Below, in pieces: positions 29,438-33,022 of a stretch of DNA of 39,866 bases. Under the pieces are notes generated by a model. It did not search any database and was not told the origin of the DNA. It worked only from the letters and a program-made list of their open reading frames with translations. The position numbers and the translations under genes were made by a program. Location of the stretch: assembly GCA_015272205.1 (NCBI GenBank), contig JACYMB010000246.1, forward strand, positions 1 through 39,866, in the 5' to 3' direction. This stretch comes from Synechococcales cyanobacterium T60_A2020_003 (lineage in GTDB: Bacteria; Cyanobacteriota; Cyanobacteriia; RECH01). The stretch's first letter is position 1, and each line of letters begins with the position of its first letter.

Positions 29438-30811
29438 TTAGGAGACAGGAACCGGAGTCAGATTGTTTTGAATCATTTCCCGGTACTGACTCTTTTGCTT
29501 CATGCCCTTCATTTCACCGACCAGAGCTTTGGCCTTAAAGAACTGAACCGTCGGTGTACCAATGATGCCTGCGGATTCGGCAATGTCCGGATCTTCAGTA
29601 ATATCGATCTCCACATAGTGAACCTGGTCGCCAAATTCGTCAATCACCTTGCTGAGAATCGGTTTCAGCGTATGGCATGGGCCACAGGTAGGCGATGCAT
29701 ACTTCACCACAATTAGGCGATCGCTCTCATGGTACAGCTTTCGCAGGGCATAGCCCCCTTCATGGTGTACACGGTGAATATCGAACTCCGATGCCTGCTC
29801 CGCTTCGGTCTTGTGGGGCGTTTCCGCATGGGGACGCTCGGAGGCTTCCGTTTGGTGGAACTCCTGGAGTAGACCGTTAGACGACAGCCACCGTTCTGCC
29901 AGCAGGGCGGCCATACAGCCTGTACCCGCCGCCGTAATCGCCTGACGGTACTCGTGATCCTGCACGTCGCCCGCCGCATAGACCCCTTCAATGTTGGTTT
30001 CGACTGAGTTCGGCTTGGTGACGATGTAGCCAACCTCATCGAGATCGATTTGTCCGGTGAACAGGCTGGTGTTCGGGGTGTGCCCGATCGCATAGAACAA
30101 GCCCCGCACTGCGATCTCTTTTTCCGCTCCAGTTTGGCGATCGCGGAGGCGCAGCCCTTTCATCCCTTCGTCATCACCCAGCACGTCTACCGCTTCGGTA
30201 TTCCAGTGGACAGTGATCTTAGGATTACGGAGGACACGATCCTGCATGGCTTTACTGGCTCGCATTTCATCCCGACGAACGAGCAAGTGAACATGGGAAC
30301 CGTACTTTGTGAGATACACAGCCTCCTCTGCGGCAGAGTCCCCACCCCCAACGACAGCGAGTTCTGCATTTCGGAAAATTGGCGTTGCGCCATCGCAAAT
30401 CGCACAGGCCGAAATGCCGCGACTCCAAAAGCTCTTTTCGCTAGGTAGACCGAGGCGTTTTGCCGTGGCTCCCGTCGCAATCACGACACTATGGGCTTTC
30501 ACCTCCCGTTCCTCGGAACGAATGACAAAGGGACGCTGGCTAAAGTCCACGGAAATCACATCTTCGGTCACGAGTTCCGCTCCCCAGCGAACCGCCTGCT
30601 CCTTCATGCGATCCATCAAGTCCGGCCCCATAATGCCATCGGGGAATCCGGGAAAATTCTCAACTTCGGTGGTGGTCATTAACTGCCCCCCCGGCAACCC
30701 TCCCGCTTGGTAGCCTTCAAAAACAAACGGCTTGAGGTTTGCCCGTGCAGCGTAGATGGCAGCCGTATATCCAGCTGGCCCTGAACCGATAATCACTAGA
30801 TTCTCTACCAT
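29438..30811 (-). CDS. NTRC: NADPH-thioredoxin reductase/thioredoxin fusion (NTRC)
   Basis: A 457-residue bidomain enzyme. The reductase part has the FAD site GSGPAG (9-14), [20 protein letters not shown], redox-active CAIC (Cys136, Cys139) and NADPH site [10 protein letters not shown] (155-164). A linker rich in Glu and His (about 318-350) leads to a thioredoxin domain with CGPC (Cys376, Cys379) and GTPTVQFF. This is the cyanobacterial/plastid NTRC, which transfers electrons from NADPH to 2-Cys peroxiredoxin and other targets. It converges on the TIGR03943 gene. ATG start at 30811. Confidence 0.97.
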
Positions 30812-30915: not shown

Positions 30916-30948
30916 GTTTTGAGTTTTGAGGGTTGAGTTTTGAGTTGA
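30916..30948 (-). repeat. Inverted copy of the CTCAAAAC-rich repeat
   Basis: Read on the minus strand, this matches the two direct copies at 32483 and 32533 at 31 of 33 positions. Together they flank the unknown gene at 31137 as inverted repeats. The unit is itself made of near-tandem GTTTTGAG blocks, so independent slippage could also explain the similarity. Confidence 0.75.
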
Positions 30949-31064
30949 AGATGCGCGGTTATGTCAGAGATTCTGTCCCTGCTCCATTACGGCCATTTCA
31001 GATATCGGAATGGGAAACCGGAAGGGGGCTAGCTTAGGAGACTCCTGCAAAGGGTTGATTTTTT

Positions 31065-31078
31065 AGTACAAATATACT
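31065..31078 (+). promoter_or_regulatory. LexA-like box 1 (one mismatch)
   Basis: AGTACAAATATACT fits the cyanobacterial LexA motif RGTAC-N3-D-GTWC-B except for A instead of G at the start of the second half-site. It is also the core of a larger palindrome, TTTAGTA-N6-TACTAAA. It lies 32 bp upstream of box 2. Confidence 0.4.
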
Positions 31079-31096
31079 AAATTATTGCTAGATATA

Positions 31097-31110
31097 AGTA
31101 CTAGCGTACT
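31097..31110 (+). promoter_or_regulatory. LexA-like box 2
   Basis: AGTACTAGCGTACT has perfect AGTAC/GTACT half-sites with four bases between, as in the cyanobacterial LexA motif RGTAC-N3-D-GTWC-B; only the D position (C here) departs. It ends 26 bp before the ATG at 31137. The 32-bp offset from box 1 is three helical turns, so two dimers could bind the same face. Confidence 0.5.
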
Positions 31111-31136
31111 AAAAACGGGTTGCGGTGAATAGGGTT

Positions 31137-32390
31137 ATGACAGACGTACGCACTGAAATCAAGGCGATTAACGAAGAGCTTCAGGCGTTGGAAACGCAGT
31201 TTGTGGAGGACTGGCTGCTCATGCCAGATACTCTAGGCCAAGGAGAATGCGATCGCCCCACGGATCACCCTCTTGAGTCTCCCCCTCCAGAGGATCAAGC
31301 TTCAGTACGCCATATGCCACACTCTCAACCTAGCAAACGATCGGCAGATGCCCTCAAGCCTAAAATTGCCCCCTCCCCAAAGCCCCCCGCACAAATCCAG
31401 ATTTCGGGTTTAGCAAACGGAGAGCAACGACAGCCTACGATCCAGAAACCCATTGGGCTACCGTCGTTTCAGATTTCAAGTCCATCGACTGCTCATACTC
31501 CTTCGGCTAAAACCCAGTCGATGACAAAGCCGTCTAAAGTCCTAGGAGAGGCGATCGCCAAACCTGCAACTTCTCAGAATCCGATATCTCCAGTGCAGGA
31601 ACAGGATGAGTTCGAGTCAGTGCTGGATGCCAAACTCCGCGAACTAGATACCCAGGCCGCCTACGTCAACCACCTAGCCGAGCAGCAGGAAACAGCGTTA
31701 TTAACCCTAAAGGCGATCGCGGAGGCTGCACAGTTTGAGGTCATTCGGTCGGGACTCATGGATGATCCCACAGGTTCTACGGAGTTGAACTGGCTGGAGG
31801 ATTATCAGCAGGCTACAGTTTCATTTGTGGAGGATGATGGGCACGGACGATGGGTGATTCGGAGTCGGGCGATCGATTGGTTTCGGGCGGAACGCGATGC
31901 ACTCACGACAGCCGAACAGCTCCGTCGCCTCCAAAAAACGCGATCGCGCAGTACCGTCTCCAGCCAACCTAGTCCTGTTTCCGCCGCACCCCGCCGCCAA
32001 CCTAGACTGGCGATCGCCCCTGTCAGCGACCCTGAGAAACGGTCGTCCCGTCGGCGTCGGGAGCAATCTGACGCGTCAACCCTTGTTCGCAGTTGGGTAA
32101 AGGGTGCAAAGCGTGCCCTCGATCATCACAAAGCTCAGCTAGAGGCGCGATCGCCCGTCCTTGTATCTCGATTGGGGAGACTATCTCCGCTCACTCCCAA
32201 TTCGTCCCCAAACGAGCAATCACCTGCCGGAGTCCAATTTCGGATTTTTGTGCTGTGGATTGCTGGCGCTGCCGCGATACGAATTGGCTTAAACGTCCTC
32301 TCAGCGATCGCCCCTTCCCTAGTCCCAGTCGTCATTCTCGGTGGATTGGGGATTGGTGGACTGCTCTTCTACCGTCTGTTTACTCAGTAG
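31137..32390 (+). CDS. Unrecognised protein: coiled coils, Pro-rich linker and C-terminal membrane hairpin
   Basis: A 417-residue protein I do not recognise. Residues 1-35 form a helix (TDVRTEIKAINEELQALETQ) that may be coiled coil. About 36-160 are Pro/Ser/Gln-rich and probably disordered. About 165-215 are a second coiled coil (ESVLDAKLRELDTQAAYVNH), followed by a small folded part (GRWVIRSRAIDWFRAERDA), a basic Arg/Ser-rich stretch, and two membrane segments at about 367-390 and 394-413 near the C-terminus. This suggests a membrane-tethered structural or scaffolding protein. ATG 31137 is chosen; a GTG at 31125 adds four residues. Two LexA-like boxes precede it. Confidence 0.75.
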   Translation: MTDVRTEIKAINEELQALETQFVEDWLLMPDTLGQGECDRPTDHPLESPPPEDQASVRHMPHSQPSKRSADALKPKIAPSPKPPAQIQISGLANGEQRQPTIQKPIGLPSFQISSPSTAHTPSAKTQSMTKPSKVLGEAIAKPATSQNPISPVQEQDEFESVLDAKLRELDTQAAYVNHLAEQQETALLTLKAIAEAAQFEVIRSGLMDDPTGSTELNWLEDYQQATVSFVEDDGHGRWVIRSRAIDWFRAERDALTTAEQLRRLQKTRSRSTVSSQPSPVSAAPRRQPRLAIAPVSDPEKRSSRRRREQSDASTLVRSWVKGAKRALDHHKAQLEARSPVLVSRLGRLSPLTPNSSPNEQSPAGVQFRIFVLWIAGAAAIRIGLNVLSAIAPSLVPVVILGGLGIGGLLFYRLFTQ

Positions 32391-32482: not shown

Positions 32483-32582
32483 TCTCAACTCAAAACTAAA
32501 ACCTCAAAACTCAAAACCGATATGACCAAATATCTCAACTCAAAACTAAAACCTCAAAACTCAAAACTAATATGATGAATAG
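32483..32582 (+). repeat. Two direct copies of a 50-bp CTCAAAAC-rich repeat
   Basis: Copies begin at 32483 and 32533, with a 35-base identical core in each (starts TCTCAACTCAAAACTAAAAC) followed by ATATGA after two variable bases. They fill the gap between the unknown gene and the next small gene, and an inverted copy lies at 30916-30948. Confidence 0.88.
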
Positions 32583-32593
32583 GATGTGCAGTC

Positions 32594-33022
32594 ATGCCCT
32601 CTGAACCAACCTCGTCCCGGTCTCACAGTACCCAGGTACAACTCGCTCCATCCATTGCCCAATTTGCAGCAGTGACGGCTAGTTTACTCATGCTGGCAAG
32701 CTTCTTTTCGGGCAAATCTCCCTTTACCCTTCGAACTCAGTCTGCTAGCAGTCCCCTCCGCTGTACCCAACTCGTGCAGCCGAACCAGACCCTCTCACGG
32801 GAACAACTCACCGCCCTGCGGAACCTAGACGGACAACAGCAACAGGCCGATCTTCAAGATCGTTTAGGTCAACCCTACTGCCAGATCGCAACGATCAGTG
32901 ATTCCGCAGGCGCATCCTTCACCGGAGATGCCTATCCCCTAGAGTTCGACCCGCAAATCTGGCTAGTGGTGCTGTATTCTGGCGATGCCTATGCGGGCTA
33001 TCAGTTTGAGTTTCGGCAGTGA
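32594..33022 (+). CDS. Small protein with one N-terminal membrane segment, unknown function
   Basis: A 142-residue protein with a polar N-terminus, one hydrophobic segment at about 20-38 (AQFAAVTASLLMLASFFSG) and a soluble remainder that would face the periplasm or lumen. Two Cys residues (RCTQLVQ and PYCQIAT) could form a disulfide. LREQLTALRNLDG-like and LGQPYCQIA segments recall SmpA/OmlA-type lipoprotein folds, but only loosely. ATG at 32594. It converges on the (p)ppGpp synthetase gene 13 bp away. Confidence 0.7.
   Translation: MPSEPTSSRSHSTQVQLAPSIAQFAAVTASLLMLASFFSGKSPFTLRTQSASSPLRCTQLVQPNQTLSREQLTALRNLDGQQQQADLQDRLGQPYCQIATISDSAGASFTGDAYPLEFDPQIWLVVLYSGDAYAGYQFEFRQ

Follow-up and report, generated by a model that had tools for sequence, protein, structure and literature searches.

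The closest described setting for the locus analyzed here is the cyanobacterial LexA (SOS) regulon, which Mazon reportedly described in 2004. As in that regulon, the box is AGTACN4GTACT, sites occur at lexA, recA, and uvrA, and the LexA protein carries the autocleavage residues. The difference lies in the targets: the main text of the regulon study by Li, Xu and Su (2010, PMC3091678) names repair, photosynthesis, and transporter genes, and no envelope operon of the type described below turned up in the sections consulted, although its supplementary tables may list single members. In Synechocystis PCC 6803, LexA has redox, carbon, or salt roles according to PMC3091678 and the abstract of PMC7567884. 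Genes of unknown function are also on record, namely Anabaena all4790, which has a published LexA box, and the radiation-induced arh genes of Arthrospira, in which lexA was reported absent (PMC4550399). By their description only, the arh genes are a possible functional parallel to the operon A-B-C-D treated here.

SOS-controlled division inhibitors and phage lysis genes, with which this operon invites comparison, are already known kinds. The division inhibitors SulA, YneA, SidA, and DivS are controlled by LexA in the SOS response, and most of them are small or membrane-anchored. YneA also figures as an SOS-controlled division inhibitor in PMC13396833. The operon has LexA control in common with these inhibitors, but no sequence similarity to them was found in Pfam or NCBIfam, and protein A is a large coiled-coil protein heading an operon that includes a lysozyme-like protein. 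The operon resembles phage lysis cassettes (holin, endolysin, and spanin) in joining a membrane protein to a muramidase-like one and possibly to a lipoprotein, and in its probable expression on DNA damage; it is unlike them in being a host operon conserved across cyanobacterial families, in the signal peptide that D has of its own, and in having no holin family match. GH24/T4-type lysozymes and the SpmX muramidase domain resemble D in the predicted fold and in the invariant Glu near the domain start, which is found in an E-G-x-R setting. However, D has no Pfam match, and 17 residues lie between this Glu and the next conserved acid, in comparison to 8 residues in T4 lysozyme. Proteins of the EnvC/NlpD type are degenerate LytM factors, and C may be similar to them in being a lipoprotein whose pattern recalls a LytM-like barrel, with an incomplete zinc ligand set, but the similarity is weak, and no coiled coil is seen in C. 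In the literature searched, which consisted mostly of titles and abstracts, there was no account of a host operon that is conserved across cyanobacteria, combines four undescribed families including a lysozyme-like protein, and is controlled by LexA.

The window, i.e., the whole stretch of 39,866 nucleotides that was analyzed, holds genes A and B, followed by a RelA/SpoT-like gene on the opposite strand. The features of the locus are listed in Table 1.

Table 1. Boxes, genes, and protein modules at the gene A locus (positions in the window).
Feature	Position	Strand	Remarks
LexA box 1, AGTACAAATATACT	31065..31078	.	9/10 palindrome positions; includes a TATACT hexamer, a possible -10
LexA box 2, AGTACTAGCGTACT	31097..31110	.	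10/10 palindrome positions; shares bases with a TATAAG hexamer (31093-31098)
Gene A, 417 aa, lead gene of the putatively LexA-controlled family	31137..32390	+	Start backed by the alignment of the N-terminal helix in relatives
A, conserved N-terminal helix (MTDVRTEIKAINEELQALE...)	31137..31200	+	From the alignment; modeled as helix 2-22 in a homologue
A, middle module: coiled coil, beta hairpin, and helix (residues ~154-265)	31596..31931	+	From alignment and model
A, C-terminal membrane module: two hydrophobic segments	32232..32387	+	Most relatives have three helices
Gene B, 142 aa, N-terminal TM segment and small domain (FDPQ.WLVVLY..YAGY)	32594..33022	+	Next gene after A; co-occurs with A

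The tandem boxes had been picked out in a sequence-only reading, and its coordinates were right: both 14-mers are present, their starts are 32 bp apart, and 26 bases separate the second box from the ATG of gene A at 31137. Sites with up to two mismatches occur in the window at chance level (8 found versus 7.3 expected), and a single weak box is therefore of little meaning, so that the test lies in the pair and in its conservation. When no more than one mismatch is allowed, the whole genome (4.02 Mb in 403 contigs) has 50 distinct sites. Among these, two pairs are no more than 50 bp apart, versus 0.03 expected (P ~5e-4), and these only two close pairs of the genome are located before recA and before gene A. 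A sigma-70 scan did not find a promoter at the settings used, and the overlap of the box with a -10 came out only in the family alignment described below. The divergent neighbor of gene A (29438-30811, minus strand) appears by eye to encode a thioredoxin reductase fused to thioredoxin, similar to NTRC, and its start is more than 250 bp away from the boxes.

The genome encodes its own LexA of 204 aa (contig C80), which matches TIGR00498 above the cut-off. By eye, this protein retains the Ala-Gly cleavage site (GEIAAGG), the catalytic Ser (GDSM), and a Lys at the expected place, and by these residues it is predicted to be able to cleave itself. The lexA promoter carries the box GGTACGTCCGTTCT, and recA is preceded by the tandem boxes AGTACCCTTGTATT and AGTACAAGTGTATT, which are 20 bp apart and about 250 bp before the start. 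Intergenic boxes were also found before recN, uvrA, radA, recJ, and gyrB, with the genes identified using NCBIfam. The gene A boxes fit this motif of the genome, which in turn accords with the published cyanobacterial LexA consensus AGTACWNWTGTACT (PMC3091678), as does the box consensus of the A family. Several other motif matches inside genes look like chance occurrences. The recA, lexA, and uvrA promoters, which the sequence-only reading had named as the place to look for the motif, thus all carry it. That reading had also offered either an SOS or a redox/carbon role, and the DNA-damage role is favored, because the other intergenic sites are mostly at DNA-repair genes and because LexA keeps the Ala-Gly site and the Ser. 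Despite the LexA-type regulon, no umuC/dinB-type polymerase was found in the genome, the assembly of which is 96% complete. The gyrB-associated site, AGTACAAAAGTATT, lies at position 1500 of locus L005 (G000, contig C22) between gyrB and a divergent gene that by eye is miaA-like; LexA control of gyrB would be unusual.

The sequence-only reading, which had seen in A a membrane-anchored protein, proposed that it is of a new kind and perhaps acts at the membrane. Neither A nor its relatives have a match in Pfam or NCBIfam, yet relatives are present in 151 of 390 cyanobacterial genomes according to a profile search, and the predicted membrane module at the C-terminus is a feature of the family, which agrees with both points. 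A single-sequence search of genome contigs with A gave no match, and the relatives came from whole genomes and profiles; a search of plasmids was likewise without a match. The protein of the window consists of an N-terminal helix, a Pro-rich linker, a central coiled coil, and two C-terminal hydrophobic segments. In its relatives, as seen in the alignment and in the model of a full-length relative (pLDDT 71), there are three C-terminal helices, ending with LLLGGRL, and the last of these is absent from the A of the window. In the full-length layout, the N-terminal helix is followed by a variable Pro-rich stretch, after which come a long coiled-coil helix, a beta hairpin with a helix, a basic linker, and the C-terminal helices. 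A fold search of the PDB with the model of the full-length relative found no match to a solved structure. Parts of this layout also occur alone: in some genomes, the middle module constitutes soluble proteins of 156-178 aa, and the membrane module constitutes proteins of 119-153 aa, both with LexA boxes. The soluble middle-module proteins are encoded at L111, L113, L116, L119, L121, L127, and L099, each with a LexA-like box, and five of these seven loci have in common an unrelated downstream gene of ~146 aa.

A co-occurs with LexA. The family is found in 145 of the 343 genomes with a LexA match, versus 6 of the 47 without one (Fisher p 5e-5, a value that ignores shared ancestry), as counted by reading printed tables. 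Among the six A-positive genomes without LexA, four are fragmented or incomplete (G003, G226, G284, and G330), and two have marginal A matches (G122 and G340). Genome families with a weak lexA match, such as f13, f19, f22, and f23, are without A.

To examine conservation of the boxes, we scanned the 300 bp before the first Met at 88 distinct A loci and scored the best-matching site of each. A box with at least 9 of 10 positions was found at 73% of these loci, in comparison to 0.6% of shuffles and 0.7% of other windows from the same loci, and a perfect 10/10 box was found at 34% versus none in the controls. The apparent misses are partly due to a wrong guess of the start codon, as L036, L124, and L128 do have boxes. 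Seven distant A relatives in other genomes, with ~30% identity, all had LexA-like boxes upstream on inspection. In the family alignment, the box starts on a TATAGT-like hexamer, the would-be -10, at 30 of 71 loci, and LexA would therefore block the polymerase directly. The comparative evidence thus strongly supports the putative LexA control of gene A that the sequence-only reading had suggested, with the motif at the SOS genes of the genome and with boxes in the upstream regions of the orthologues, where it had proposed to look for them. Its further claim that the boxes are helically phased gains modest support. Across relatives of A, the spacings between tandem boxes (n=35) cluster near 20-23, 31-32, and 40-43 bp, which corresponds to about two, three, and four helical turns, and the periodicity (R = 0.41 at period 10.5) has a p of ~0.003 that is uncorrected for relatedness; because the sequences are related, the evidence for phasing is modest.

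Neighbor clustering together with profiles for B, C, and D defined the operon. The order A-B-C-D on one strand was found at 40 of 72 readable loci, a few of which are one genome region retrieved twice by different tools, and 20 more loci have partial or expanded orders (A-B-C, A-B, A-B-D, and others). Among the named genomes, Oculatella sp. LEGE 06141 shows A-B-C and Pegethrix bostrychoides A-B-C-D. At the remaining 12 loci, A is alone; the soluble variants account for seven of them, and at two there is no space left downstream of A. D was found in 141 of the 151 A-positive genomes (a count that ignores shared ancestry), and the ten others are soluble-A genomes, marginal matches, or in one case a fragmented assembly. 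In the genome analyzed here, the window contains A and B with a gap of ~200 bp with repeats between them, so that co-transcription at this locus is only putative, and C and D are on another contig. There, a second set A'-B'-C'-D' is located (contig C147, L164 2285-5209). A' is the membrane module alone, a protein of 124 aa with three hydrophobic helices, and is preceded by two boxes 23 bp apart, AGTACTTGTGTACC and GATACACTTGTACT. The repeats belong to dispersed intergenic repeats of the type CTCAAAACTCAAAAC, which are found in the window at 32483-32575 and 30919-30944, with similar motifs in L001 and L164; copies of the 43-nt repeat sit between genes A and B.

None of the proteins B, C, and D reached a convincing score with Pfam, NCBIfam, or PHROGs. 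B proteins, at ~140 aa, carry a membrane segment at the N-terminus. D consists of a signal peptide, recognized by eye, and a Pro-rich stretch, followed by a domain of 179 residues with a mean column identity of 68%, in which Glu20, Asp38, and His53 are invariant in 34 sequences. The AlphaFold2 model of D has a pLDDT of 90, and the first nine fold matches in the PDB are phage or prophage muramidases, endolysins, peptidoglycan hydrolases, and the SpmX muramidase domain, at E values of 0.05-0.6, none of them below 0.001, with probabilities of 0.57-0.97 and TM scores of 0.35-0.46. Among viral models, D came closest to a phage protein with a LysM domain (E 2e-8, TM 0.77), with lysozymes and endolysins next in rank. 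By sequence, a relative of D in a Microcoleus phage is encoded between genes for an N-acetylmuramoyl-L-alanine amidase and an LD-endopeptidase, and on a Leptolyngbya plasmid another relative forms part of a protein whose annotation is M23 metallopeptidase. Loci with D-like proteins that are not part of the operon are L229 (Leptolyngbya boryana plasmid) as well as L227 and L226 (phages). D is therefore predicted to fold like T4-type lysozymes, and by its model it probably works like one. A search with D gave no match to the Pfam lysozyme family, and as no family profile matches and the muramidase activity is a prediction, we do not file D as a GH24 member.

C, of which 27 of 42 sequences contain a lipobox-like motif, is a probable lipoprotein. 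Its comparison with M23/LytM by hhalign gave a plausible register, which is a faint pattern in a weak match (probability 5.7%, E 0.007), and Pfam showed no M23/LytM match. Matches of C to designed repeat proteins in phmmer were judged spurious because they amount to ~7 bits per repeat.

Taken together, we consider it probable that the site acts as an SOS promoter repressed by LexA, from which gene A is expressed as the first gene of a cyanobacterial envelope operon (A-B-C-D). The best reading of this operon is that it cuts or remodels peptidoglycan during the SOS response, for which we infer the muramidase activity and the cellular outcome. DNA damage would trigger LexA self-cleavage, upon which the operon would be expressed. 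The C-terminal helices of A would insert in the cytoplasmic membrane and leave the coiled-coil module in the cytoplasm, B would be membrane-anchored with its domain outside, and C, as a lipoprotein, would carry a degenerate LytM-like barrel. D would be exported and could cut peptidoglycan by means of its T4-lysozyme-like fold with the invariant Glu. A to C may place or restrain D, with the result that damaged cells, instead of dividing at a given place, would have their wall remodeled or opened there. Two boxed loci would share the function in this genome, of which the window holds A-B and the other contig A'-B'-C'-D'. Candidate outcomes are arrest of septation, separation of the damaged cell from the filament, or lysis, and the most likely purpose is an action on the wall of damaged cells. 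The boxed soluble A proteins without B, C, and D nearby in some genomes (probably Nostocaceae) argue against this envelope reading, as they imply that the middle module has a LexA-controlled function independent of wall enzymes.

These soluble variants bear on the view, which we regard as rather unlikely, that A is an SOS division inhibitor, i.e., a membrane-anchored checkpoint like YneA or SidA that binds the divisome via its coiled coil, with B, C, and D adjusting septal wall synthesis or cell separation and no lysis taking place. It would fit such a role that the middle module alone is kept under LexA in genomes without D, that other short boxed variants are the membrane module alone, and that LexA control and a membrane anchor come together in A. 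In addition, the literature searched, largely titles and abstracts, gave no known cyanobacterial SOS division inhibitor. However, Pfam and NCBIfam, the family libraries searched, link A to none of the known inhibitors, and the fold of D argues for wall cutting. The resemblance of D to phage endolysins and its phage relatives, one of which lies in a cluster of wall-degrading genes, would rather agree with programmed lysis by a host-owned SOS device similar to a phage holin-endolysin cassette. In that case, A or A' would be holin-like and D the endolysin, and irreparably damaged cells would lyse, thereby fragmenting the filament or releasing their contents. Three hydrophobic helices in a protein of about the size of A' are a layout known among holins. 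We nevertheless hold such a device to be unlikely, as D brings its own signal peptide, as A and A' match no holin in Pfam or PHROGs, as A usually has a large cytosolic part, and as the four genes are widely and stably conserved, unlike a prophage remnant. Lysis genes of a prophage proper were set aside, with no phage genes noticed beside the conserved host operon.

A regulatory rather than enzymatic objection is that the LexA-like sites serve redox, carbon, or salt control instead of the SOS response. The roles ascribed to LexA of Synechocystis PCC 6803 in PMC3091678 and in the abstract of PMC7567884 provide a precedent, but in the LexA encoded here both the Ala-Gly site and the catalytic Ser are retained, the motif is found at recA, recN, uvrA, radA, recJ, and lexA, and genome families with a weak lexA match (such as f13, f19, f22, and f23) lack A, which makes a non-SOS role very improbable. 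To the assumption that the boxes are chance palindromes we give practically no weight: weak single sites are indeed common, but this does not account for a tandem pair, for the overlap with the promoter, or for boxes being conserved in most relatives, ~100 times as often as in the controls. We keep to a probably SOS-controlled operon that would act on the wall. Its most far-reaching version is a host-owned, LexA-controlled wall-cutting device, made of undescribed protein families, by which many cyanobacteria would purposely lyse or sever DNA-damaged cells of a filament, as the bacterial equivalent of eliminating cells upon damage; in our estimate, this is unlikely.

Little is known about how the cyanobacterial envelope and division respond to DNA damage, and the published LexA work that we found deals with repair, photosynthesis, carbon, and salt. 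The present analysis provides a defined gene set with a common promoter. For biotechnology, this set is a candidate DNA-damage-inducible system for opening the wall. If D is a muramidase, one repressor would couple wall cutting to DNA damage in much of the phylum, which would have consequences for filament fragmentation, for survival of UV and other radiation, and for the release of organic matter.
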